Shown here piece by piece: positions 11,481-59,071 of a stretch of DNA of 64,000 nt (position 1 is the first letter of the stretch; each line of letters begins with the position of its first letter). Both the position numbers and the translations under genes were made by a program. The stretch comes from Nothopassalora personata (lineage: Eukaryota > Ascomycota > Dothideomycetes > Mycosphaerellales > Mycosphaerellaceae), in assembly GCA_033816765.1 (NCBI GenBank), contig CM066298.1, forward strand, positions 1,550,001-1,614,000, given 5' to 3'. The notes under the pieces were generated by a model. It searched no databases. It saw only the letters and a program-made list of their open reading frames with translations, and was not told where the DNA came from.

Positions 11481-11914
11481 GGTAAAAATTGTAGCTAGGG
11501 GGTACATTACGCTAGTCTAAGATTAGACGTACTAAAAAAACCCTAATCCTAGGGGCCGCGAAGGCGACGACGGCTTAGAGTTATAATATCGTAACGTAGG
11601 GTCCCGTTACTAGCTTAAATCTACTTATTTATCTACTAAGGGGTTAAATACTATTGTAACCCTAGGGTAACCGAGAGTATAAGGCTTTATTTATCTAGGA
11701 TTATCCGGATTAGGCGGCGACGGCGATAACGAGTATTATAAGTATAGAAATCGTAGGTACTATAGTCTAGTAGCCTATAATAATACTTATTGCGTTTATA
11801 GGGCTATATACTTATTATAAGGGCGGCGAATAAATAGAGTACGCGTCGATACTATTCGGCCGGGATTGTCCGGATTAGGCGGTAGCGACGACGACGAGGG
11901 GTAGTTAAGTGTAT

Positions 11915-12331
11915 CGTAGGTTCTCGGTCTAGGAAGTATTCGGCCTATGTTCAAAAAGGCTATAAGGACTACAACGTACGTCTCTTTCTCGTCCGGAGTA
12001 GAAACGCCTTCGCGATTCGCGCGATAAGCTTAAGCTAGAGCTTAAGAGGATTAAAGAGGAGGAGGTGCGGCTAAAGATACGTAAGATCCGTCTTCGGAAA
12101 CAGCTACGCTTAGCTAAGCGTCGTACTAACGACGCCGTCGCTAAGGAGTTAGAGGAGCTCGAGGAGGAAGAGGCGCGCGAGGAGCTAGCGTCTCTTAAGT
12201 AGGCGTCGGGGGTAGAGGTGTCGCCTTCGCTAGTTTCTTTCTCGGATATCCTAGAGATGCCCGTAAACGACTAGGCGGCGCTTTCTAGGGCGGAGTCCTA
12301 GGGCGAGTCCCTAGGGGTAGAAACTTATTAG
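11915..12331 (+). pseudogene. Decayed antisense accessory gene of Gyp-D
   Basis: This plus-strand reading is antisense to Gyp-D. It matches the antisense gene of Gyp-C almost residue for residue in the coiled-coil part (RDKLKLELKRI, then EEEVRLKIRKIRL) and the tail (SFSDILEMPVND). It ends at TAG 12329-12331. The Cys-rich N terminus is partly recognisable (SRSRKYSAYVQKGYKDYNVR, with Cys to Tyr changes typical of TGT to TAT). A small insertion shifts the frame near 11990. It sits between the 3' end of pol and the missing 3' LTR, the same place as in Gyp-B and Gyp-C. Confidence 0.6.
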
Positions 12332-12371
12332 GGTATTTATTTATAAGTTCTCCGTTTCCTTTCTTAAAACC

Positions 12372-12494
12372 GGTTATATAGCTTAGTAGTTAGAGCGTCG
12401 GGGCATAACCTATGTGTTAATGAATTCTCCTTACCCTTAGGCGAAGGTTCGTTAAAGGTATCCTAAGGTCGTAGGTTCGATTCCTACTTTAACT
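12372..12494 (+). tRNA. tRNA-like gene of Gyp-D with intron-like insert
   Basis: The acceptor strands GGTTATA (12372-12378) and TTTAACT (12488-12494) pair at six of seven positions. The A box (TAGCTTAGTAGTTAGAGC) and B box (GGTTCGATTCC) are present, and the T arm GTAGG/CCTAC is perfect. The anticodon stem TCGGG pairs with CCTAA, or better with an unmutated CCTGA, if about 50 bp are removed from the anticodon loop, like a tRNA intron. The loop starts GCATAAC, which recalls tRNA-Met(CAT) but does not fit it exactly. It is antisense to Gyp-D pol, and its T arm contains the complement of the pol stop codon. It differs in sequence from the tRNA-like genes of Gyp-B and Gyp-C. Confidence 0.55.
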
Positions 12495-14859
12495 GCTTTC
12501 TAGTAGATTAGTCTCTAGCGGAGGTTAATCTACTAGTACGTTTTTAGTACTCCTAGATCCTTTGCTAACAGTTCTATAGGTGTTCTTTTAGTTCCTAGGT
12601 ATTTTCTAATTCGTCGTATCCTTTCTACTTAATAAGGTATCGCTAACCTCTTCTATCTAGGATTTTTTCGACTTCGAATTCGTTCTCTACTTCCGGCTCG
12701 AAATAGAAGCTCTCTTAGTAAGGTGTCTCGGTGTCCGCTAGTTCTAGCTTAGAGATGTAGAAGACTAGGTGGATTTTTGCGTCTAGTAGTAGCCGTAGTC
12801 GGTAGTTAACTAGTCCTACGACTTTGTTGATGAAAAATAGTCCGACCTTAACGTAATCTAGCTTCTTAGTCTATCTTCTTATTCTTAAGTTTTTTATAAG
12901 GAGATAGACCTTATCCCCCTCTTTTAGTAGAGGTGCTATTTTTCTCGTGTCTTGCCGTTATTAAGACAGTTTATATTATATATTATTACTCGCCTTATGC
13001 GCTTCTTTATGCACTTCCTTAAGAGTATTCGTCGTTACGATTGCTCTTTCGGCTTATAGGTAGGATCTAGGTGTTCCGAATAGGTTAGGATCCTTTCTAA
13101 AGTTTATATAGAATAGCGTCGTTAAAGTTGTCTCTAATTTGTAGTTGTTTAGTGCAATCTGTACTATTAGTAACAGTAAAACCTAGTTGTCTTATACGTA
13201 GTTAATGTAGTGCCGTAGGTATTGTTCTAGCGTTTAGTTTATCCTTTCAGTTTGTCCGTCTATCTCCGGATAATATGCTATTAATAGCTTATGTTTAATT
13301 CCGATAGTTCCTATAAGCGTCTTCTAGTAGTTCGATGTAAATAGTTTGTCTCTATCCGTTATAAACGCTTAAGGGAATCCGTAGTATCGGATAAGTCTAT
13401 CTAGTACGAGGTATCCGAGCTACTCTACATTATATGTTTCTAATGTAGGAATAAAGTGTACGTATTTCGTAAGTCTATTAACTATAACTAGTATTATGTC
13501 GTATAATTGTTTCGTAACTTAATCCTTTAACGGTAGGAGTTTCGTAATAAAGTCTATTATAACTTCGTCCTATAGTTTTGTCGGTAGTGTCCTAAACTGT
13601 AGGTGACCGTATTTTATATGTCTCGTAGCCTTATTTCGTTAGTAGTGTACACATTGTTTAATGTAGCGTAACACCTTAAGTCTTATCTATAGGAATAAGA
13701 AGCTACGCTATATTAGGTCTATTGTCTTTAAAGTTCTAGGGTGTCCGTAAGTTAGTCCGTCGTAATGTTATCGTATATATTCTTCTTCTCGATTCTTTAG
13801 TACTTAGTACTTTCCTTATAATATAGGGAATTGTTCGTCCTTGTCGCCTAATATCCGTATAATGTTATTAAATTCTCTTATGTTAGTACTAAGACTTTCG
13901 TCGGGGTTCGTCTTTAATACTTTATGTTACACTAGTTCTTTTCCTTCTATATAGTCGCTCCTCCGGCTTAGCGCGTCGGCGCGGCCGTTCTCTCGTCCTA
14001 GAGTATATTTAATTTCGAACTTATACTATCCTAGTAGCTCCGACTAGCGGGCTTACCTTCGGGTAAGTTCTTTCGTTGTCGTGAAGTACGTAAGATCCTT
14101 ATAGTTAGAAAGAATCGTTAACTTTGGTAGGCCCTCGACGTATACTCTCTAATATTGCATAGTAGTAACAATAGCTAGAAGCTCTTTATTATAGATGTCG
14201 TAGTTCTATTCCGCTATAGTCATTTTCCGGGAGTAATAGGCTACTAGGTGTCTCTACCTATCGTGTGTCTATGTTAGACATGCGCCTATTGCTATATCGG
14301 ACGTATCGGTCTCGATGTAGACTTTCTTACTACTATCAAATAGTCGAAGCGTAGGGGCTAAAGCGTATTGTTCCTTAAGTTTCTTAAACGCTTTAATCTA
14401 TTCCTTTCCCTATTTCTAGGTAACGTCTTTTCTCGTAAGCTATAAGGGTAGCCTATAGCTAACCCTTATATGTAATGCGGCTATACCTAGCTTAGCATAC
14501 CGCACGTAACGCGTATACGTACACTAGGAGACGCGTATAGCGTCGATAGAAGAAAGTAAGCTTTAGTTTATCTACGATTAGAAGATCGTAGGCGTGCTAT
14601 ACATTACGATATTCCCTTATAGCCTTACGGCCCTAATAGTTCTAAAGCTTACCTTCGTTACAATCTATATACGCTATAGAGCCCGATCGCGACGTATACG
14701 ACGGCGAGTCGCCTACGCCGCCCCTAAGCCCTAGAGCATAGTAGTAGGCGCGTCGTGTAGCCTTAGTTACGAGAAGAGAGGCCTTACGGGCTAAGATTAA
14801 AGAGTAAGAGATATAGCGGGAGATCGAGCGGCTAGAGATCTTACGCGCTATAAGCGCAC

Positions 14860-42070: not shown

Positions 42071-42479
42071 TGTTACGGTTCTGATCTGGGGCTGAAGGAA
42101 GCTAACCAATCAGACCTCCACAATTGGTGGGCGCTTCCGCCCGAGAAGTGCTCTCTCACCCGCAGGAATAAAACCAAGGAACCGAGAGAGCAACTGAAGT
42201 GATCTCCTTGATCTCGTTGATCTCGGTGATCTCGAGAGAGCATGGAGAGCATGGAGAGCACGGAGAGCAAACGCTCTATCTCCTTTGTATTTAGGAACGC
42301 TAGAAACCCTTATGGTTCTGATGCGTTCAACTCATGTTACTATCTCACTGATTGGAATACAACTCTTATTCCTATCATTTATCTTCGCTCAGCTTGCTTC
42401 AGCCTCTCCAAAGAATAATACCGCCACGTGACTTGACTTATCTCTCTTTTGAGACTAGCCCTGGAACGAGACAATAACA
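42071..42479 (+). repeat. Gyp-B 5' LTR (409 bp)
   Basis: Starts TGTTACGGTTCTGATC and ends GAGACAATAACA. The variable part (about 42140-42280) holds GATCTC words, GAGAGCATG repeats and the inverse GCTCTCTC. The constant part has a TATTTA element (42288-42293) and the GCGTTCAA site (42323-42330) where the transcript probably starts. Confidence 0.95.
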
Positions 42480-42481
42480 CT

Positions 42482-42489
42482 TTGAACGC
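42482..42489 (+). promoter_or_regulatory. Gyp-B primer-binding site, complementary to the LTR (self-priming)
   Basis: Two nt after the 5' LTR the sequence TTGAACGC is the exact complement of GCGTTCAA at 42323-42330 in the LTR, about 33 nt downstream of a TATA-like element. This is the Tf1-type arrangement in which the mRNA 5' end folds back as primer. Gyp-C keeps the same pairing in RIP-altered form (TTTAAACGCCC after its LTR). Confidence 0.6.
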
Positions 42490-42496
42490 CCTCAGG

Positions 42497-44515
42497 ATGA
42501 GCGCTACTCAAGCAGCTGGTAGGGGAACACCCGCCCCCAGCGAAGCAGGAAGCATCCGCCGTGCGCCACCACAACAGACTACCACCACGAAGGACGATGA
42601 GTCTGATGACGATGACGAGTCTACTCCAAGGAAGAACGACGTTAAGGCCGCCAAGCCAGACCTCTTCCATGGAGACAGAGCCAAGTTCGACGACTGGATC
42701 AATCAGATGGATATGTATCTCATGTTCAACCCAGTCGATGCTAATAAGAGGACTATCTTCGCCATCACGTACCTTCGCGGAAGTGCGCAGAACTGGATCA
42801 AACCTTACCTTAAGGAATACCTTGAAGGTATGGGACGATTAGACCCCACTGGAATGTTCAGGAGCTACACCCTTTTCAAAGAAAAGATGAAATCAATCTT
42901 TGGAACCTCGAACGAAGTCCAACAGGCCATACGAATTATTCAACACCTAAAGCAGAAGACGTCTACTTCAGAGTATGCCGCCAAATTCGAAGAATACGGA
43001 CAAATCACCGGATGGGACCAGACGGCGTTGATGACTATGTTCCGACGTGGACTTAAGGACTCCGTCAAGGACGAGTTGATAAGACACGGGGGACGGATCA
43101 CCAACCTCGAAGAGCTAATGAAGGCGTCGATCAACATCGATGACCAGCTCTGGGAACGACACCAGGAGAAGAAATACGACTCCAAAGTAGGAGGAATAGC
43201 AGGATACGCTCCGGATCGCAGACCCTTAGGAGGATACGTTGCGAAGGGAGAATTCTCACGACAAAGCCAACCCTACTATGGACCACAGCCAATGGAACTG
43301 GACGTTACCCAACGAGGACGGAAGATCGATAAGAGTAGGGGCCACGGAAAGCCCTTCAAAGGAAAAGGAAAACTCACATGTTATGCCTGTGGCAAGGAAG
43401 GCCACATGGCGCGAGATTGCCGCGGTAAAAATATGGTGCGCCGCGAGCAATTCAATATGATGCAACCCCGAACTAGTAAATCTGAGAGCAGCGTTGGATC
43501 TCGAGGAGATACCGACTATACTCGGAGAGTGGAGGAGAGAGCTAGCAACAGAAACACGACGCCTCTCCTGGACCCCTCAGAAGGACGAGGAGGATACCAT
43601 GGGCAGCAAATGGTGGTCATTCCATTTGATGCGAAGAACCAACCACGACAGTTCAACATGATGACACGAAGAGTCGACTACGAGACCGAATCCGAGTCTC
43701 GAAATGGTCATGGAAGCCTTCATTGGCGATTCTGTTACCAAGACTCGTGTCAAATCCACTACGCCGCGAAGTCAGGCGCAGGGTATTGGCCTCAGCAACC
43801 ACGAGGAACCCTGGGAGCGACGCATAGGCAAGACGCCACGCTCCGAGAAGTGGACATCGATGAATCCTACTTCAACGAAGATGGAAGCGATAAAGAAAAT
43901 CAGGACCCAGGATGGAACGGATCATGGTCACCAGAACCACGAGAAGAAAGTCAAGAAACCACCGGGTTAGATACCATCGAGGAAGAACAGGATCCGGAAG
44001 AATCAAGCGAAGACGATTCCTCCGAAGGGAAAGAGAGCGACACTGACGACGACAATGAACAACTTACCTTCACGGTAGATGCACCCAAGAGACTATACGA
44101 CATGATCATCTACCTACAAAGAAGGCACGAGGAATTCCTACCTAAGATAGGTGGACGAAGGAGGCTACATTCCATTGAGTTTGACAAGACACTCGACACC
44201 CTACGAGGCATGGCCTGGGGATACCCACTCATGGAAACAACCGAGAATCTAGCAACCACCGTTACAGAACGACCACCGATAGGAAGCCGAATAACAGGAA
44301 CCGGATATCTTACACCGTCAGGAACATTTATATCGAATGAATTACGCAACATAGTGCAGCACGCACGCGCACTCTACTCAGAAACGCAGAAGATCCAGGA
44401 ACGCAACAGACTACAAGTGTGGACACAGGGCAACGAGCTACAGGTTCTAGCCGAAGCCTCTAGGCACGAAGCACAGCGAACCACATACCATTCGGGAAAA
44501 GGATCAGCTCCCTAG
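42497..44515 (+). CDS. Gyp-B Gag (672 residues)
   Basis: The start is ATG 42497 (MSATQAAGRGTPAPSEAG), 18 nt after the LTR; a longer frame begins inside the LTR but without an ATG. After an acidic linker (ESDDDDE) comes the capsid-like domain (PDLFHGDRAKFDDWINQM, then FRRGLKDSVKDELI), about residues 55-230. The zinc knuckle CYACGKEGHMARDC (C-X2-C-X4-H-X4-C) is near 43380-43420. The C-terminal half is acidic and disordered, ending HSGKGSAP. The stop TAG is at 44513-44515. Confidence 0.93.
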   Translation: MSATQAAGRGTPAPSEAGSIRRAPPQQTTTTKDDESDDDDESTPRKNDVKAAKPDLFHGDRAKFDDWINQMDMYLMFNPVDANKRTIFAITYLRGSAQNWIKPYLKEYLEGMGRLDPTGMFRSYTLFKEKMKSIFGTSNEVQQAIRIIQHLKQKTSTSEYAAKFEEYGQITGWDQTALMTMFRRGLKDSVKDELIRHGGRITNLEELMKASINIDDQLWERHQEKKYDSKVGGIAGYAPDRRPLGGYVAKGEFSRQSQPYYGPQPMELDVTQRGRKIDKSRGHGKPFKGKGKLTCYACGKEGHMARDCRGKNMVRREQFNMMQPRTSKSESSVGSRGDTDYTRRVEERASNRNTTPLLDPSEGRGGYHGQQMVVIPFDAKNQPRQFNMMTRRVDYETESESRNGHGSLHWRFCYQDSCQIHYAAKSGAGYWPQQPRGTLGATHRQDATLREVDIDESYFNEDGSDKENQDPGWNGSWSPEPREESQETTGLDTIEEEQDPEESSEDDSSEGKESDTDDDNEQLTFTVDAPKRLYDMIIYLQRRHEEFLPKIGGRRRLHSIEFDKTLDTLRGMAWGYPLMETTENLATTVTERPPIGSRITGTGYLTPSGTFISNELRNIVQHARALYSETQKIQERNRLQVWTQGNELQVLAEASRHEAQRTTYHSGKGSAP

Positions 44516-44537
44516 GAATGAGCGACCGGAGGGAGTT
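44494..44537 (+). promoter_or_regulatory. Programmed -1 ribosomal frameshift signal of Gyp-B
   Basis: In the gag frame the sequence is tcG GGA AAA gga: the heptamer GGGAAAA (44494-44500) fits X XXY YYZ exactly. A 5-nt spacer is followed by an 8-bp stem, AGCTCCCT (44506-44513) with AGGGAGTT (44530-44537, one G-U pair). The gag stop begins within the stem. After slippage the frame continues RISSLGMSDRR into protease without a stop. Pol is open in the -1 frame only from 44464, so the overlap is about 50 nt and the site falls within it. Confidence 0.8.
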
Positions 44538-45270
44538 ATGCAATATTCAGGCTCACGCATCGACATCAAACACAGTTTTCCAGACACAAGCAATCGTCAA
44601 CGGACACAAGACTAGTGTCATGATCGACTCAGGAGCAGCGGGGAATTTTATCTCCGAGTCTTTCACAAGAAGAAACGGGTTAGCTACCCTAAAGAAGAAA
44701 TGGGGTTACGAGTTGATCGCGGTAAACGGATCATCGTTACCTAGCGTGGAATGGGAGACGATACCATTGCCACTGGCTATCCAACAGCACCACGAGAATA
44801 TTACCTTGGATGTCACTGATATGGCCAGTCATGACATAGTATTAGGTATGCCTTGGTTGAGAAAGCACAATCCAGTAATCGACTGGAGAAGAGGAGTACT
44901 CACATTTAGGGAATGCGATTGCGTTGTCGACATTCAGCCTGCGCAGTGGCAGCGTTCACTGGCAGATGAGGCAAGGAAACAGCTAAACGAGATACAGCTT
45001 GCGCCGAATAGAAGGACAGAAGAACCACCTTCGACCGGGACAGACACTGGCGTGGGGCCGCCGGGTCACGAAGTCACTGGAAGTGATGGAAGTAACGCAC
45101 CATCGAAGAATACTAACATCTCAGAGTTGAGTATTCCCAAGGAGTATCGCAAGTGGTCGCGACTCTTTGAAGAGGAGAGAGGCAAAACCGCCTTACCTAA
45201 GCACCGCCCATGGGATCACAAGATCAACATTCAGCCAGGGAAAGAGCCTCCATGGGGACCCCTATATTAA
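44518..45270 (+). CDS. Gyp-B pol part 1: aspartic protease, ending at an in-frame TAA
   Basis: The -1 frame after gag reads a retropepsin with VMIDSGAAGNFIS (catalytic Asp-Ser-Gly) and IVLGMPWLRKHNPVIDW. It continues to the linker ...GKEPPWGPLY and a TAA at 45268-45270, directly followed in the same frame by MSEKELQTLREW of RT. In related elements this linker is continuous, so the TAA most simply replaces a sense codon such as CAA by one C-to-T change in a CpA context. The ATG at 44518 is probably not the natural start, given the frameshift signal. Confidence 0.85.
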   Translation: MSDRRELCNIQAHASTSNTVFQTQAIVNGHKTSVMIDSGAAGNFISESFTRRNGLATLKKKWGYELIAVNGSSLPSVEWETIPLPLAIQQHHENITLDVTDMASHDIVLGMPWLRKHNPVIDWRRGVLTFRECDCVVDIQPAQWQRSLADEARKQLNEIQLAPNRRTEEPPSTGTDTGVGPPGHEVTGSDGSNAPSKNTNISELSIPKEYRKWSRLFEEERGKTALPKHRPWDHKINIQPGKEPPWGPLY

Positions 45271-47934
45271 ATGTCTGAGAAAGAGCTGCAGACCCTACGA
45301 GAATGGCTGAAGGAGAAGCTAGCTAAAGGATGGATAAGAAGATCCACCTCAAGTGCAGGAACTCCATGCATGTTCGTTCCAAAAGCAAACGGGAAGTTAC
45401 GACTCGTACAAGACTACAGGAAGTTAAACGAGATCACGATCAAGAACCGATACCCGCTACCTAACATCGAAGAAGCACAAGACAGATTAACCGGATTAGA
45501 CTGGTACACGAAGATTGACCTACGAGATGCCTTCTATGCTATACGAATGGCAGAAGGAGAAGAATGGAAAACCGCTTTCAGAACAAGATACGGACTTTAC
45601 GAATTCTTAGTTATGCCAATGGGATTAACCAACGCACCCGCATCCTGCCAGGACCTTGTCAACGAAACACTTAGAGACCTACTCGACGTATGCGTTATCG
45701 CCTACATGGACGACATACTAGTCTACACAAAAGGGTCCCTACAGGAACACATAAAACAAGTCCAGGACGTCTTCGAACGACTCACGCAATCAGGGTTCAA
45801 GACGGCGCCCGAGAAATGCGAATTCCACAAGAAAGGAGTCAAATTCTTAGGCTTCATTATTAGCACCACAGGGATAACGATCGACCCTGCGAAGACACAG
45901 TCAATTAGAGAGTGGCCAGAACCGAAAACAGTCAAGGACGTACAATCATTCCTTGGACTAGCGAACTACAACCGGAAATTCATTAAGGACTACGCGAAAA
46001 TAGCAGCACCAATGACGATGCTTACAAGAAAGGACGTCACTTGGAAATGGGGAAAAGAACAGATTGAAGCATTCAAGAAACTCAAGGAACAATGCGCTTC
46101 AGCCCCTACGCTTCGATTATTCGATGGTAGCAAGGAAGTCCACATCGAGACCGATGCGTCTGATATGGCAATAGGCGCGTGTCTAACGCAGACACACGAT
46201 GGGCAGAGACACCCAATAGCCTATTACTCCCGGAAAATGACCACAGCGGAACAGAACTACGACATCCATGACAAAGAGCTTCTAGCCATTGTTGCTGCCA
46301 TGCAACATTGGAGAGTATATGTCGAGGGCCCACCGAAGTTAACGATTCTTTCTGACCACAAGAATCTTACGTACTTTACGACGACGAAAGAACTTACTCG
46401 AAGGCAAGCCCGCTGGTCGGAGCTGCTGGGACAGTATAAGTTCGAAATTAAATATACTCCAGGACGAGAGAATGGCCGCGCCGACGCGCTGAGCCGAAGA
46501 AGCGACTACATGGAAGGAAAAGAACCAGTGCAACATAAGATATTAAAGACAAACCCCGACGGAAGTCTTAGTGCCAACACAAGAGAATTCAACAACATCG
46601 TACGGATATTAGGCGACAGGAACGAACAATTCCCTATATCGCAAGGAAAATACCAAGTACCTAAGGATCGAGAAGAAGAATGCATACGACAACATCACGA
46701 CGGACCAACTTATGGACACCCTGGAACTTCAAAAACTATGGACCTAATACAGCGCAGTTTCTCCTTTCCACAGATGAGACTTAAGGTGTCACGCTACATT
46801 AAACAATGCGTACACTGCCAACGAAACAAGGCTGCGAGACATGCAAAATACGGTCACCTACAGTTCAGGACACCACCGACGAAACCATGGGACGAAGTCA
46901 CAATGGACTTTATTACGAAACTCCCACCGTCAAGAGATCAAGTTACGAAACAACCATACGACATGATACTAGTCATGGTTAATAGACTTACGAAATACGC
47001 ACACTTCATTCCTGCATCAGAAACGTACAATGCAGAGCAGCTCGGATACCTCGTACTGGATAGACTTATCCGATACCACGGATTCCCTCAAGCGTTTATA
47101 ACGGACAGAGACAAGCTATTCACATCAAACTACTGGAAGACGCTTATGGGAACGATCGGAATCAAACACAAGCTGTCAACAGCATATCATCCGGAGACAG
47201 ACGGACAAACCGAAAGGATGAATCAAACGCTAGAACAATACCTACGACACTACATCAACTATGCACAAGACAACTGGGTTTCATTACTGCCAATAGCGCA
47301 GATTGCACTAAACAACCACAAATCGGAGACAACTTCAACGACGCCATTTTATGCGAACTTTGGTAAAGATCCTAACCTATTCGGAATACCTGGATCCCAT
47401 CCACAGGCCGAGAGAGCAATCGTGACGACGGATACTCTTAAGGAAGTGCACAAAGAAACACGCAAGGCGATCGAAGATGCACAACGAAAACTGTCTCAAC
47501 AACGGCAGGACACGAGAAAAATGGCACCTCTGCTAAAAAAGGGGGATAAGGTCTATCTCCTCACAAAAAACTTGAGAACAAGAAGACAGACCAAGAAACT
47601 GGATCACGTCAAGGTCGGACCATTTTTAATCGACAAAGTCGTAGGACCAGTTAACTATCGACTACGACTACCACCTGACGCAAAAATCCACCCAGTCTTC
47701 CATATCTCTAAGCTGGAACCCGCAGACGCCAGAACACCTTGCCAAGAGAGCTTCCATTTCGAGCCGGAAGCAGAAAACGAATTTGAAGTCGAAAAAATCC
47801 TAGATAAAAAGGGTCAGCGATACCTTATCAAATGGAAGGGATACGACGAATCAGAAAATACCTGGGAACCAAAAGAAAACCTACGAAACTGTCAGCAGAA
47901 GATTCGGGAGTATCAAAACGGACGACTGGAGTAG
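45271..47934 (+). CDS. Gyp-B pol part 2: RT, RNase H, integrase, chromodomain
   Basis: 887 residues in frame with the protease. RT has LRLVQDYRKLNEITIKNRYP and the catalytic YMDD (IAYMDDILVY). RNase H has ETDASDMAIGAC and the ADALSRRS end. The integrase has the HHCC domain (HPGTSKTMDL, CVHCQRNK) and the DDE core (MDFITKLPPS, TDRDKLFTSNYWK, HPETDGQTERM). The GPFLIDKVVGPVNYRLRLP tail precedes a C-terminal chromodomain (KWKGYDESENTWEPKENL). The stop TAG at 47932-47934 lies inside the antisense tRNA-like gene. All catalytic residues checked are present. Confidence 0.94.
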   Translation: MSEKELQTLREWLKEKLAKGWIRRSTSSAGTPCMFVPKANGKLRLVQDYRKLNEITIKNRYPLPNIEEAQDRLTGLDWYTKIDLRDAFYAIRMAEGEEWKTAFRTRYGLYEFLVMPMGLTNAPASCQDLVNETLRDLLDVCVIAYMDDILVYTKGSLQEHIKQVQDVFERLTQSGFKTAPEKCEFHKKGVKFLGFIISTTGITIDPAKTQSIREWPEPKTVKDVQSFLGLANYNRKFIKDYAKIAAPMTMLTRKDVTWKWGKEQIEAFKKLKEQCASAPTLRLFDGSKEVHIETDASDMAIGACLTQTHDGQRHPIAYYSRKMTTAEQNYDIHDKELLAIVAAMQHWRVYVEGPPKLTILSDHKNLTYFTTTKELTRRQARWSELLGQYKFEIKYTPGRENGRADALSRRSDYMEGKEPVQHKILKTNPDGSLSANTREFNNIVRILGDRNEQFPISQGKYQVPKDREEECIRQHHDGPTYGHPGTSKTMDLIQRSFSFPQMRLKVSRYIKQCVHCQRNKAARHAKYGHLQFRTPPTKPWDEVTMDFITKLPPSRDQVTKQPYDMILVMVNRLTKYAHFIPASETYNAEQLGYLVLDRLIRYHGFPQAFITDRDKLFTSNYWKTLMGTIGIKHKLSTAYHPETDGQTERMNQTLEQYLRHYINYAQDNWVSLLPIAQIALNNHKSETTSTTPFYANFGKDPNLFGIPGSHPQAERAIVTTDTLKEVHKETRKAIEDAQRKLSQQRQDTRKMAPLLKKGDKVYLLTKNLRTRRQTKKLDHVKVGPFLIDKVVGPVNYRLRLPPDAKIHPVFHISKLEPADARTPCQESFHFEPEAENEFEVEKILDKKGQRYLIKWKGYDESENTWEPKENLRNCQQKIREYQNGRLE

Positions 47935-47996
47935 GAATCGAACCCACGACCTCAAGAGTGTAGACAGCTTGCGCTCTACCACTGAGCTACCCAGCC
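47923..47996 (-). tRNA. tRNA-like gene of Gyp-B, antisense, overlapping the pol stop
   Basis: On the minus strand the acceptor strands GGCTGGG (from 47996) and TCCAGTC (to 47924) pair at all seven positions, two of them G-U. The D stem GCTC/GAGC is perfect, and so is the T arm GTGGG/CCTAC with one G-U. The A box TAGCTCAGTGGTAGAGC and B box GGTTCGATTCC are intact. The anticodon arm is odd: only four pairs (CAAG/CTTG) and an 11-nt loop CTGTCTACACT, so either a tiny intron or a non-decoding tRNA-like RNA. A TTTT terminator follows (47918-47915). The pol stop TAG lies within the T arm/acceptor part. Confidence 0.7.
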
Positions 47997-48036: not shown

Positions 48037-48600
48037 TTACGAAGGAGACGGCTGAGCCACCGACGGCACCGTCTCGCCAGAAGGAGAAAGCCAGAAGTCG
48101 TCCGGAAGACCTTCGACAGCACTCCAGGTCCAAGGAGACAAGGACAGATTGGGAGCACTAGGATCCGCGTCTGCTACAGCGTACTCCTGCGCCCCTGGAT
48201 CCTCGTCTAGCAACAACCGATCTTCCAACGAACGACCCTCCGCAACCTTCTGATCAACCGCATCCAATTGCTTACGAAGGCGCATTTCCTTTGCATGCGC
48301 TTCCATTAAGGCATCCTGCCTTTCACCAAGAATCCTCTTCGCGGCATCCAGTTCCTGCAACAATTTCTTCCGCTGAAGCGATAAGCGCTTCCACTCGCCC
48401 TCGGTTACCCTCGCATTGCAACTCTTCAGATTCCGCTGCCAGCACTCGGAACAGCGACCAGATGAGATGTGCACCTTGCACACACGGCCCTCCTTTTGAC
48501 AAGAATCACACGGACGCATCGCGGTATCGCCGTTACGAAAGATCTGCTGGGCTTTCTTCTTGCGGCGAGCGGTAGATTTGGATTGGGAGGAAAAAGACAT
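48037..48600 (-). CDS. Antisense accessory protein of Gyp-B: Zn2Cys6-like domain plus coiled coil (187 residues)
   Basis: An uninterrupted minus-strand frame starts 76 nt inside the 3' LTR, opposite to gag-pol. A basic N terminus (STARRKKKAQQIF) leads to CDSCQKEGRVC, then CSEC and LKSC. The spacing is C-X2-C-X6-C-X8-C-X2-C-X7-C, exactly that of fungal Zn(II)2Cys6 binuclear clusters. A predicted coiled coil follows (residues about 70-125, RKKLLQELDAAKRIL), then an acidic tail with LPDDFWLSP. Gal4-type regulators have the same cluster-then-coiled-coil order. Diverged versions occur at the same place in Gyp-C and Gyp-D, so it is a family trait. A role in transcription or targeting of the element is inference. 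Confidence 0.75.
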   Translation of the reverse strand: MSFSSQSKSTARRKKKAQQIFRNGDTAMRPCDSCQKEGRVCKVHISSGRCSECWQRNLKSCNARVTEGEWKRLSLQRKKLLQELDAAKRILGERQDALMEAHAKEMRLRKQLDAVDQKVAEGRSLEDRLLLDEDPGAQEYAVADADPSAPNLSLSPWTWSAVEGLPDDFWLSPSGETVPSVAQPSPS

Positions 48601-48675
48601 CGTTGCGAGACACGAAAAAGAAGTACAACATGACTTATGAAGCTCTGGGACAGAGCTAGGCTAAAAGGGGGATGG

Positions 48676-49084
48676 TGTTACGGTTCTGATCTGGGGCTGA
48701 AGGAAGCTAACCAATCAGACCTCCACAATTGGTGGGCGCTTCCGCCCGAGAAGTGCTCTCTCACCCGCAGGAATAAAACCAAGGAACCGAGAGAGCAACT
48801 GAAGTGATCTCCTTGATCTCGTTGATCTCGGTGATCTCGAGAGAGCATGGAGAGCATGGAGAGCACGGAGAGCAAACGCTCTATCTCCTTTGTATTTAGG
48901 AACGCTAGAAACCCTTATGGTTCTGATGCGTTCAACTCATGTTACTATCTCACTGATTGGAATACAACTCTTATTCCTATCATTTATCTTCGCTCAGCTT
49001 GCTTCAGCCTCTCCAAAGAATAATACCGCCACGTGACTTGACTTATCTCTCTTTTGAGACTAGCCCTGGAACGAGACAATAACA
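48676..49084 (+). repeat. Gyp-B 3' LTR (409 bp)
   Basis: Identical by eye to 42071-42479; followed by TAGTC (49085-49089). Its antisense strand is the likely promoter side for the accessory gene, whose start is 76 nt away. Confidence 0.95.
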
Positions 49085-54558: not shown

Positions 54559-57500
54559 CTTTAAACGCCCTTAGGATAAGCGCTACTTAAGCAGCTAGTA
54601 GGGGAACACCCGCCCCCAGCGAAGTAGGAAGCATCCGCCGTGCGCCACTATAACAGACCACTACGAAGGACGATAAGTCTAATGACGATAACGAGCCTAC
54701 TCTAAGGAAGAACGACGTTAAGGCTGCTAAGCTAGACCTCTTCTATAGAGACAGGGCCAAGTTCGACGACTAGATCAATTAGATGGATATATACCTCATG
54801 TTTAACCTAGTCGATGCCGATAAAAGAACTATCTTCGCTATCACGTACCTTCGCGGAAGTGCGCAGAACTGGATTAAACCTTACCTTAAGGAATACCTCG
54901 AAGGTATAGTGTTACGGTTCGGACAAGACAACGTGGAGGAGTCTTACTGGACGGACTATAGCGTATCCTGGCAGTCGGATAGGCAGCAGTCGAGCAGTCG
55001 TGATCGAGCTACTCGGGTCGACCAGTGACTCACCCGGATCGACCGACTGGTCGACCGACCAGGTCGTGCTCGACCAACCAGTCGCCAAGACATGGCACTA
55101 TATAGACGACGCTCTTTTGCAAGTAGATAGGAGCCTCGTGCTCAACTCATTTTAAGTATACACCATATACTGTTTGGAACCACTACCTTCATAACTGATT
55201 GAGACATCCCTGCAAAGATCCAAGCCCGAGTTGTGATAACGTACAGCGGTTCCTAACATATAGGACGATTAGACCCCACCGGAATGTTTAGGAGCTATAC
55301 CCTCTTTAAAGAAAAGATAAAATCAATCTTTAGAACCTCGAACGAAGTCTAATAGGCCATACAAATCATTCAATACCTAAAGTAGAAGACGTCTACTTTA
55401 GAGTATGCCGCCAAATTCGAAGAATACGGACAAATCACCGGATAGGACTAGACGGCGTTAATGACTATATTCCGACGTGGACTTAAAGACTCCGTTAAGG
55501 ACGAGTTAATAAGACACGGGGGACGGATTACTAACTTCGAAGAGCTGATAAAGGCGTCGATTAATATCGATAACTAGCTCTAGGAACGACACTAGGAGAA
55601 GAAATACGACTCTAAAGTAGGAGGAATAGTAGGATATGCTCCGGACCGCAGACCCTTAGGAGGATACGTTACGAAGGGAGAATTCTCACGATAAAGCTAG
55701 CCCTACTATAGACCATAGCTAATAGAACTAGACTTTACCTAACGAGGACGGAAGATCGACAAGAGTAGGGGCTACGGAAAGCCCTTTAAAGGAAAAGGAA
55801 AACTCACATGTTATGCCTATAGTAAGGAAGGCTACATAGCGCGGGATTGCCGCGGTAAAAATATAGTGCGCCGCGAGCAGTTTAATATAATGCAACCCCG
55901 AACTAGTAAATCCGAGAGTAGCGTTAGATCTCGAGGAGATACCGACTATACTCGGAGAGTAGGGGAGAGAGCTAGCAACAGAAGCACGATGCCTCTCCTA
56001 GACCCCTTAGAAGGACGAGGAGGATACTATAGGTAGCAAATAGTAGTTATTCCATTTAATGCAAAGAACTAACTACGATAGTTTAACATAATAGTACGAA
56101 GAGTTGACTACGAGATCGAATCCGAGTCTCGAAATAGTTATAGAAGCCTTCATTAGCGATTCTGTTACTAAGACTCGTGTTAAGTTTACTACGCCGCAAA
56201 GTTAGGCGTAGGGTATTAGCCTTAGCAACTACGAGGAACCCTAGGAGCGACGCATAGGCAAAACGCTACGCTCCGAGAAGTGGATATCGACGAATCCTAC
56301 TTCGACGAAGATAGAAGCGATAAAGAAAATTAGGACCTAGGATAGAACGGATTATAGTTACTAGAACTAAAGACAGTTAAGGACGTACAATCATTCCTTA
56401 GACTAGCGAACTACAACCGGAAATTCATTAAGGACTACGTAAAGACAGTAGCACTAATGACGATGCTTACGAGAAAAGACGTTACCTAGAAATAGGGAAA
56501 GGAATAGATTAAAGCGTTTAAGAAACTTAAGGAACAATACGCTTTAGCCCCTACGATTCGACTATTCGATAGTAGTAAGAAAGTCTACATCGAGACCGAT
56601 ACGTCCGATATAGCAATAGGCGCATGTCTAACATAGACACACGATAGGTAGAGACACCTAGTAGCCTATTACTCCCGGAAAATGACTATAGCGGAATAGA
56701 ACTACGACATCTATAGTAAAGAGCTTCTAGCTATTGTTACTACTATGCAATATTAGAGAGTATACGTCGAGGGCCTACCGAAGTTAACGATTCTTTCTAA
56801 CTATAAGAATCTTACGTACTTCACGACGACGAAAGAACTTACCCGAAGGCAAGCCCGCTAGTCGGAGCTACTAGGATAGTATAAGTTCGAAATTAAATAT
56901 ACTCTAGGACGAGAGAACGGCCGCGCCGACGCGCTAAGCCGAAGAAGCGACTACATAGAAGGAAAAGAACCAGTGTAACACAAAATATTAAAGACAAACC
57001 TCGACGGAAGTCTTAGTGCTAACATAAGAGAATTTAACAACATCGTACGGATATTAGGCGATAGGGACGAACAATTCCCTATATCGCAAGGAAAATACTA
57101 AGTACCTAAGGATCGAGAAGAAGAATGCATACGATAACATTACGACGGACTAACTTATAGACACCCTAGAACTTTAAAAACAATAGACCTAATATAACGC
57201 AGTTTCTCATTTCCATAGATAAGACTTAAGGTATTACGCTACATTAAACAATGCGTACACTGCTAACGAAACAAGGCTACGAGACATGCAAAATACGGTT
57301 ACCTACAGTTTAGGACACTACCGATAAAACCATAGGACGAAGTTACAAGAGACTTTATTACGAAACTCCCACCGTTAAAGGATCAAGTTACGAAACAACT
57401 ATACGACATAATACTAGTTATAGTTAATAGACTCACGAAATACGCACACTTCATTCCTACATCGGAAACGTACAATGTAGAGCAGCTCGGATACCTCGTA

Positions 57501-58425
57501 CTAGATAGACTTATCCGATACTACGGATTCCCTTAAGCGTTTATAACGGACAGAGATAAGCTATTCATATTAAACTACTAGAAGACGCTTATAGGAACGA
57601 TCGGAATTAAACACAAGCTATTAACAGCATATTATCCGGAAATAGACGGACAAACCGAAAGGATGAATTAAACGCTAGAACAATACCTACGACACTACAT
57701 CAATTATACATAAGACAACTAGGTCTCATTACTGCTAATAGCGTAGATTGCACTAAACAACCACAAATTAGAGACAACTTCAACGACACCATTTTATGCG
57801 AACTTTAGTAAAGATCCTAACCTATTTAGAACACCTAGATCCCACCTACAAGCCGAAAGAGCGATCGTAACGACGGACACTCTTAAGGAAGTGCATAAAG
57901 AAACACGCAAGGCGATCGAAGATGCACAACAAAAACTGTCTTAATAACGGTAGGACACAAGAAAAATAGCACCTCTACTAAAAGAGGGGGATAAGGTCTA
58001 TCTCCTTACAAAAAACTTAAGAATAAGAAGACAGACTAAGAAACTAGATTACGTTAAGGTCGGACTATTTTTCATCGACAAAGTTATAGGACTAGTTAAC
58101 TACCGCCTACGACTACCACTGGACGCTAAAATCCACCTAGTCTTCCATATCTCTAAGTTAGAACTAGCAGACGCCGAGACACCTTACTAGGAGAGCTTCC
58201 ACTTCGAGCCGGAAGTAGAAAACGAATTTAAAGTCGAAAAAATCCTAGATAAGAAAGGTTAGCGATACCTTGTTAAATAGAAAGAATACGACGAATTAGA
58301 AAATACCTAGGAACTAAAACAAAACCTACGAAACTGTTAGCAAAAAATCCAGGAATACTATAAGACTAAAAAACGGCCAGCCTACTAAGTCACCGATTGG
58401 CGACTAGTCGGCCGGGAGCGGCTAG
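54559..58425 (+). pseudogene. Gyp-C gag and pol remnants
   Basis: Gag reads from 54559 (zinc knuckle near 55805-55850 with Cys and His losses). A deletion junction lies at 56361-56368, followed by the RT end, RNase H, integrase and chromodomain up to about 58340. Many TAG/TAA stops occur. The central deletion removes the gag-pol junction, protease and RT active site. Confidence 0.85.
54910..55258 (+). repeat. Solo LTR S3 (TGTTACGG family), TSD TATAG
   Basis: Flanked by TATAG (54905-54909 and 55259-55263), inserted in Gyp-C gag. The downstream half matches S1 and S2. The upstream half is unique and packed with GTCGACC, GGTCGAC, CGACTGG and CGACCAG words in both orientations. No RIP is visible although the surrounding Gyp-C is heavily mutated. 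Confidence 0.94.
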
Positions 58426-58492
58426 AGTAGGAATCGAACCTACGACCTTAAGAGTGTAGACAGCTTACGCTCTACGACTAAGCTACCTAGCC
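58420..58492 (-). tRNA. tRNA-like gene of Gyp-C (decayed but foldable)
   Basis: Same position and orientation as in Gyp-B. The acceptor strands GGCTAGG and TCTAGCC pair at all seven positions even after RIP. The B box GGTTCGATTCC and T arm GTAGG/CCTAC are intact; the A box is altered (TAGCTTAGTCGTAGAGC). The same odd 11-nt anticodon loop is present. A T6 run lies downstream (58372-58367). Confidence 0.6.
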
Positions 58493-58531: not shown

Positions 58532-59071
58532 CTAATAAGTCTCTACCCCTAAGGACTCGCCCCAAGGCTCCGCTCTAGAAAGCGCCGCCTAGTTATTTAC
58601 GGGCATCTCTAGGATATCCGAGAAGGAGACTAGCGAAGGCGACACCTCTACCCCCGACGCCCGCTTAAGAGACGCTAGCTCCTCGCGCGCCTCTTTCTCC
58701 TCGAGCTTCTCTAACTCCTTAGCGACGGCATCGTCGGTACGACGCTTAGCTAATCGAAGCTGTTTCTAAAGACGGATCTTGCGTATCTTTAGCCGCACCT
58801 CCTCCTCTTCAATCCTCTTAAGCTCTAGCTTAAGCTTATCGCGCGAATTGTAAAGACGTTCCTACTCCGGACGGGAAAGACGCACATCGCAATCTTTATA
58901 GCCTTTTCGAATGTAGGCCGAACACTTCCTAGACCGAGAACCTACGATACACCTTACTACTGCGCCCGAGGATCGAGACTTCTAACAATTCGTATATAGA
59001 GCTATTTCGATACCGGAAATTTCAGTATCTAGAGTAAGTCGATAACGGCGTTTATAGGAGGAAGAAGACAT
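58532..59071 (-). pseudogene. Antisense accessory gene of Gyp-C (decayed)
   Basis: 180 codons from ATG 59071 to TAG 58534-58532 with a few RIP-type stops. The Cys cluster is recognisable (TNCQKSRSSG, RKCSAYIRKGYKDCDVR), with Cys-to-Tyr changes at two ligands and a longer second spacer (11 rather than 6). The coiled coil (RDKLKLELKRIEEEEVRLK) and the tail (SFSDILEMPVNN) are clear. Homologous in layout to the Gyp-B protein but strongly diverged in sequence. Confidence 0.65.

Follow-up and report, generated by a model that had tools for sequence, protein, structure and literature searches.

The window, i.e., the whole stretch of 64,000 nucleotides analyzed here from Nothopassalora personata, contains an LTR retrotransposon (Gyp-B) that carries an open reading frame (ORF) on its opposite strand, between pol and the 3' LTR (Table 1). 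Gag, RT, RNase H, integrase and a chromodomain (1.7e-15) identify the host element as a chromovirus (Ty3/gypsy), its integrase rve core scoring under its own cut-off, and its LTRs are identical across the 300 nt compared. The window copy of pol bears an in-frame TAA (45268–45270) that is absent in three other copies (L055, L059, L060). The antisense frame of 187 codons is intact, as a sequence-only reading of the same stretch had stated, and its translation bears out the six-cysteine spacing C-X2-C-X6-C-X8-C-X2-C-X7-C (residues 31, 34, 41, 50, 53 and 61) reported there. The coiled coil that had also been proposed agrees with the AlphaFold2 model, where this part of the protein is a single helix.

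Table 1. Positions in the window of the Gyp-B features and of related features in Gyp-C and Gyp-D.
Feature	Position	Strand	Remarks
Degenerate Gyp-C-type ORF copy in Gyp-D	11901–12349	+	
Further tRNA-like gene	12372–12495	+	
Gyp-B 5' LTR	42071–42479	+	U3 same as in 3' LTR
Gyp-B gag	42497–44515	+	
Gyp-B pol	44464–47934	+	protease, RT, RNase H, integrase, chromodomain
tRNA-like gene, between pol and ORF in Gyp-B	47923–47996	-	
Antisense ORF P0001	48037–48600	-	translation 187 aa + stop
Conserved tail LSP.TW...FW, residues 152–170 of the ORF	48091–48147	-	alignment
Long helix / coiled coil, residues 67–133 of the ORF	48202–48402	-	AlphaFold2 model
Zn2Cys6-like cysteine cluster, residues 31–61 of the ORF	48418–48510	-	spacing, alignment, fold hints
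Leader, Gyp-B ORF start to 3' LTR	48601–48675	-	89% identical to Gyp-C (alignment); conserved hairpin at about 48641–48657, polypurine tract at about 48663–48672
U3 of Gyp-B 3' LTR	48676–48888	.	GAGAGCA/TGATCTC repeats at about 48754–48873
Gyp-B 3' LTR	48676–49084	+	
Solo-LTR-like insertion within Gyp-C	54910–55263		
Further tRNA-like gene (Gyp-C)	58419–58492	-	
Degenerate ORF copy in Gyp-C	58538–59071	-	four in-frame TAG

Homologues at the same position in other elements were found, as that reading had expected: at least eight families (B, C, E, F, G, H, I and J) possess stop-free copies of the antisense ORF in the 54.5 Mb assembly, the copy numbers per family being lower bounds since the best 150 candidates were scored per search. 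In family B, 13 of the 23 full-length matches at 98% identity or more are stop-free, nine have one TAG and one has one TAA, while all 16 family C matches at 99% identity or more are stop-free. The corresponding figures are 14/14 (E), 4/5 (F), 27/32 (G), 15/15 (H), 3/3 (I) and 14/14 (J, where the sequence fetched covers the ORF up to its final codons but not the stop codon). The remaining genome matches mostly bear several TAG and TAA, which we take to be the outcome of RIP. The ORF copies of Gyp-C and Gyp-D in the window, which had been taken for strongly diverged homologues, are indeed present, but they are degenerate. Over 367 nt the two share 92% identity, so that they represent decayed members of one subfamily instead of homologues that diverged independently; elsewhere in the genome, Gyp-C-type copies free of stops exist. 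The nine one-TAG Gyp-B copies comprise L064, L065 and L066, with TAG at the same codon on two haplotypes, and six further places. Since such copies have multiplied, the protein may be supplied in trans. Additionally, six degenerate Gyp-B matches with equal scores, three per strand and about 10.8 kb apart, lie at G000:C1:5714053-5776273 and probably constitute an inverted tandem array of a larger unit.

The location of the gene is nearly constant. All 45 ORFs examined start 35–160 nt from the start of the LTR that lies upstream on the ORF strand, and all but three of them at 65–83 nt; they come from 44 of 66 fetched loci, some of them overlapping, the other 22 loci having no ORF that passed the filter (at least 140 aa with the cysteine pattern and a RLRxQL-like motif). 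Across the loci compared, this demonstrates a conserved gene in a constant position. Families E, G, I and J share an R-U5 of another type than that of B, C, F and H. Two elements of families E and G (L041 and L045; 2455 and 2400 bp) have identical LTRs, a 330-aa gag and no pol, and have kept the antisense ORF; these short elements are a non-autonomous kind that retains the putative regulator gene. The end of the 330-aa gag was also seen in family I, and J was read less far. The solo-LTR-like insertion within Gyp-C has an E/G-type R-U5 and a U3 motif (GGTCGAC, four times, reached by 2/200 shuffles) unlike the motifs of the other families.

Two further structures were observed near the LTRs. Just before the polypurine tract, RNAalifold places a 7-bp stem (-5.15) in the leader of the window element and at the equivalent place in the other seven families; this hairpin is the best fold in six of the eight families (shifted in F, absent in H), and the letters of its stem change on both sides from family to family. 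In addition, an 8-nt stretch past the Gyp-B 5' LTR (42482–42489) is complementary to a stretch inside that LTR (42323–42330). The pair reads TTGAACGC/GCGTTCAA in B and TTGAGCAC/GTGCTCAA in E and G (L041, L045), both sides differing together, and in Gyp-C the longest match found by script is another 9-mer, the same 8-mer pair being still present. This self-complementarity possibly serves self-priming according to the Tf1 model.

A search with P0001 alone retrieved three homologues, whereas a five-family profile retrieved 165 (Elsinoe, Sporormia and Xanthoria are among the 120 listed) and a C/J profile 73 (Cryoendolithus, Oleoguttula, Cladosporium, Ramularia and Rachicladosporium among them), the two lists overlapping. 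An alignment of 72 sequences (five from this genome and 67 of the 120 listed homologues) shows no variation at any of the six cysteines; in a second alignment (two from this genome and 40 of the 73) five are invariant and one is kept in at least 90%. The Zn2Cys6 pattern, C-X2-C-X6-C-X5-12-C-X2-C-X6-8-C, is present in six of the eight families (B, E, F, G, H and I); the first loop is longer in C (X11) and J (X13). The cut-off of Pfam PF00172 (Zn_clus) was not reached: three of the 72 members gave a match with E ≤0.1 (best E 0.011), P0002 scored 16.2 bits against a cut-off of 21 and P0001 gave no match. AlphaFold2 models of two antisense proteins have a mean pLDDT of 85.7 (Gyp-B) and 80.3, and Foldseek comparison of both with 350,542 PDB chains returned two and one matches at E ≤10, namely Pho7 twice and LAC9, all Zn2Cys6 domains and none significant (E 0.62–6.4). 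Profile searches of PDB sequences were of little use: the full profile reached LAC9 at E 7.9 (row 12 of 13), behind coiled-coil rows down to E 0.028, and the cysteine-domain profile gave antifungal protein and MDM4 rows and zero Zn2Cys6 chains; a scan of IMG/VR gave 39 pattern stretches, of which 0 were confirmed. The label Zn2Cys6-like is therefore used because of spacing and fold hints, not because of family models. In the last 70 residues, D+E exceeds K+R by at least 9 in six of eight families and by 8 in family H. An acidic tail containing W/F is found in seven of eight, the exception being E (D+E 5 vs K+R 4); the LSP.TW...FW tail may be an activation motif.

Selection on the ORF was compared at two depths. 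Between families, dN is 0.49–1.01 and dS 1.3–3.7 or saturated, and third codon positions differ most in all 28 family pairs, which demonstrates protein-level constraint as far as these alignments reach. Within Gyp-B no purifying signal was found and amino-acid changes exceed silent ones: 16 fetched ORF records, with some loci counted twice and one frameshifted, contain six amino-acid changes against a single silent one, plus one stop, and three further copies add one more silent change and one TAG. The excess of dS over dN to which the sequence-only reading had tied its proposal thus holds between families, where dS is near or at saturation, but not within Gyp-B.

The ORF and the U3 differ much more than the elements that carry them. 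Among B, C and F, the 1400 nt before the pol end are 96% identical and R-U5 97–99%, whereas the antisense proteins are 29–37% and the U3 49–66% identical (base-shuffled U3 gave a mean of 47% and a maximum of 53% in 40 trials). Family H is more distant from these three (R-U5 72–73%; pol 90–94% across merely 124 nt). The same pattern was obtained between E and G, with 98.9% of gag nucleotides and 87% of R-U5 identical compared to 34% for the antisense protein and 65% for U3; the U3 of the four gag-type families are 65–77% identical to each other and are thus related rather than unrelated. In the B/C alignment, read in steps of 60 columns, the number of identical columns is 53–59 in pol, 7 in one mostly-gap step and 52–53 in the tRNA-like gene and spacer; it falls to 19–29 in the ORF, rises to 51 and 44 in the leader, falls again to 18–28 in U3 and reaches 50–59 in the rest of the LTR. 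The ORF and the U3 therefore diverge as two separate blocks around a conserved 75-nt leader, whose identity is 89% between B and C and 36–79% in the other 27 family pairs. The alignments demonstrate that ORF and U3 both differ on near-identical backbones; the two B/C blocks we read as a joint replacement of ORF and U3, and for family F one contiguous exchange would be enough to explain the difference.

The U3 regions contain short repeats between the LTR tip and the TATA-like box. These are GAGAGCA and TGATCTC in B, and in the same interval TGATCAGACTG in C, GGATCTGTCGAACAGATCC in E, ACTGATCAGT in F, TGCTCTCTCGAGAGAGCA in G, TTGATCTGTCGAACAGATCAA in H, TGCTCTGTAACAGAGCA in I and TGATCTCT together with GAGAGCA in J. 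The top 7-mer occurs 4–7 times in B, C, E, F, G and H (0/200 shuffles) and is not significant in I and J (14 and 176/200 shuffles); three repeats served as controls, one of which had a 7-mer reached by just 9/200 shuffles. TGMTC, a motif picked after inspection and counted on both strands, occurs 7–13 times in the U3 of seven of eight families (reached by 0–1/1000 shuffles) and twice in that of E (534/1000), and it is not enriched in the controls (0–3 in R-U5, 0–2 in four other repeat stretches of the window). The longest U3 inverted repeat was reached by 1–6/200 shuffles in E, F, G, H and I; the corresponding counts were 16 (C), 40 (J) and 143 (B), and 17, 52 and 142 for the controls. Family-specific U3 repeats are thereby demonstrated, on these counts, in most families. 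A Mantel test for coevolution between the DNA-binding domain (DBD) and U3 across the eight families was negative, DBD identity showing no correlation with U3 6-mer similarity (r -0.18, p 0.80, all 40,320 permutations); across the k-mer tests, r ranged from -0.15 to -0.18 and p from 0.75 to 0.80.

The ORF has a tRNA-like gene beside it in B, C, the Gyp-D locus and several of the degenerate relatives; neither the Gyp-B gene nor the in-frame TAA in pol had been noticed in the sequence-only reading. In the window, the two further genes of this kind also lie on the ORF strand, just past its stop. It might act as an amber suppressor, by which TAG codons made by RIP would be read through, since ARAGORN (bacterial code) gives the anticodon CTA in Gyp-B and Gyp-C, all 15 intact Gyp-C-type loci carry the same tRNA sequence, degenerate copies are rich in TAG and a complete tRNA stands beside two of the three fetched TAG-bearing ORF copies. 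This is very improbable: the anticodon loop aligns as 9–11 nt and not the 7 expected of an amber suppressor, the standard code with introns gives Asp with a 4-nt intron in Gyp-B and Arg in L019, a 2-nt loss breaks the T arm at six distinct multiplied Gyp-B places, and the fetched loci of E, F, G, H and I gave no such gene at the corresponding position. A role as an anti-RIP device was rejected on loop length, broken T arm and absence from most other families, and a role as the element's primer in view of the possible 8-nt pairing between the LTR and the site past the 5' LTR. The gene looks like a dispensable passenger. tRNA-like sequences, some of them CTA, occur in the LTRs of Helenus elements, according to the available part of the account (PMC10886601).

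We propose, with a probability of about 0.52, that the antisense protein is a sequence-specific DNA-binding regulator acting on its own U3. The earlier suggestion of a regulator on the element's own LTR is partly supported and stands as the best-supported reading, despite the negative test of DBD–U3 covariation; it is so because of the Zn2Cys6-like fold hints, the repeated U3 sites and the ORF and U3 that differ together on near-identical backbones. The retention of the antisense gene by E and G, which are without pol, is counted in its favor. Counted against it are the negative DBD–U3 correlation, the Zn_clus score below cut-off, the non-significant Foldseek matches, the cysteine-domain profile that retrieved no Zn2Cys6 chain, the missing purifying signal within Gyp-B, the multiplied one-TAG ORF copies, the failure of TGMTC in E, that of the top 7-mer in I and J, and the control repeat with a rarely matched 7-mer. 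The protein would comprise a Zn2Cys6-like head, a coiled-coil dimer and a mostly acidic tail with aromatic residues. Its targets would be repeats or palindromes within the U3 of its own LTR, where it would most likely serve as an activator or anti-silencer. The U3 of the 5' LTR would drive gag-pol and that of the 3' LTR, read backwards, the regulator (a divergent promoter); since U3 is the same in both LTRs, one operator could serve both directions. We infer zinc and DNA binding, dimer formation, U3 binding, the sign of the effect and an antisense promoter in U3.

Antisense protein and U3 may thus form a private module on exchangeable backbones, and their differing together between families suggests that they are each family's private on-switch. 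In a more specific version, which we advance tentatively and with the odds somewhat against it, each family would own a private circuit in which an activator of Zn2Cys6 type, encoded by the element, is matched to the operator in U3; the two would be replaced together on a common gag-pol backbone, even where a conserved leader lies between them, with U3 as a divergent promoter. Families would thereby escape cross-talk, and pol-less elements would still have to carry their own switch, which would explain why they retain the antisense gene.

On the other hand, the protein could work on chromatin, in nuclear import or in insertion targeting, or suppress silencing, with no tie to U3, the repeats being host-factor sites that diverge on their own. 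The negative DBD–U3 test fits this alternative, as does GAGAGCA, common to B, G and J despite DBDs just 31–52% identical, but it leaves unexplained why ORF and U3 of B and C both differ around a shared leader, and we consider it unlikely. A brake, by which either the protein or the antisense RNA itself keeps down sense transcription or the number of copies (as an autorepressor, by transcriptional interference or through double-stranded RNA), would suit a gene that lies antisense across the element's 3' end, and also the DNA-binding-like head, and antisense RNA has been discussed as a possible regulator in the part of the literature account at hand (PMC7264820). However, RNA alone would need neither the between-family protein constraint nor invariant cysteines, and the acidic W/F tail of seven of eight families (not E) suits an activator better, albeit only suggestively, so that a brake appears rather unlikely as well. 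A captured host gene carried by the LTRs and without function for the element, which would be in line with the absence of any sign of recent purifying selection within Gyp-B, is scarcely credible, given that at least eight families and many fungal sources have retained the gene, its position and cysteines staying constant.

The own-U3 regulator has several partial counterparts. Gal4-type Zn2Cys6 factors (Pho7, LAC9, Put3, Hap1) have the cysteine spacing of six of the eight families followed by a helix, and their domains (Pho7, LAC9) are the sole Foldseek matches; unlike them, the antisense proteins fall below the Pfam cut-off, the first loop is extended in C and J, and the candidate half-sites are TGMTC-like, the usual Zn2Cys6 half-site being CGG. 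Among viruses, HBZ of HTLV-1 is an antisense leucine-zipper gene expressed from the 3' LTR and Tas of foamy viruses is a DNA-binding LTR transactivator, both with folds that would differ from the one suggested for the antisense protein. In fungi, the gene brtn is reportedly the subject of Zhao et al. 2011 (Virology 417:248). As far as the available parts of the accounts go, brtn is an extra gene that Boty-like Ty3/gypsy elements carry in antisense (PMC8365987, PMC7264820, PMC4227169, PMC5987419), located between pol and the 3' LTR (PMC7264820), and the Gyp-B ORF shows this very disposition in a fungal Ty3/gypsy element. The claim that no equivalent had been described is therefore only partly right, the antisense brtn of Botrytis Boty-like elements being in print (PMC8365987, PMC7264820, PMC4227169); these accounts, in the parts available, mention neither a zinc cluster nor a link to U3, and brtn is likened here by position and not by sequence. 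No Botrytis name occurs among the homologues listed (120 of 165, plus the C/J profile matches). Plant antisense ORFs (Grande gene23, RIRE2, Retand) likewise lie between pol and the 3' LTR; in the same partial account, the Grande protein is nuclear, the plant products have no reported similarity to other proteins and the function of antisense accessory genes of LTR retrotransposons is called unknown (PMC7264820). In open-licence papers, mostly covered by titles and the start of abstracts, no Zn2Cys6-type antisense regulator of an LTR element was found.

Closest in behavior is VANC of Arabidopsis VANDAL elements, likewise a sequence-specific regulator encoded by a transposable element, whose targets are described, in the portions available, as noncoding tandem repeats that vary between related elements (PMC5735166, PMC10398659). 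Varying noncoding repeats are present here in the U3 of six of eight families by the top 7-mer and of seven of eight by TGMTC. VANC belongs to a plant DNA transposon and its binding was shown by experiment, in contrast to the present system, which belongs to an LTR retrotransposon and is described from sequence. Several pairs of antisense protein and U3 on near-identical backbones in one genome constitute a natural domain-swap experiment with a testable answer, and if the proposed reading is true, LTR retrotransposons would join the elements with family-specific, fast-changing regulator–target systems such as VANC.
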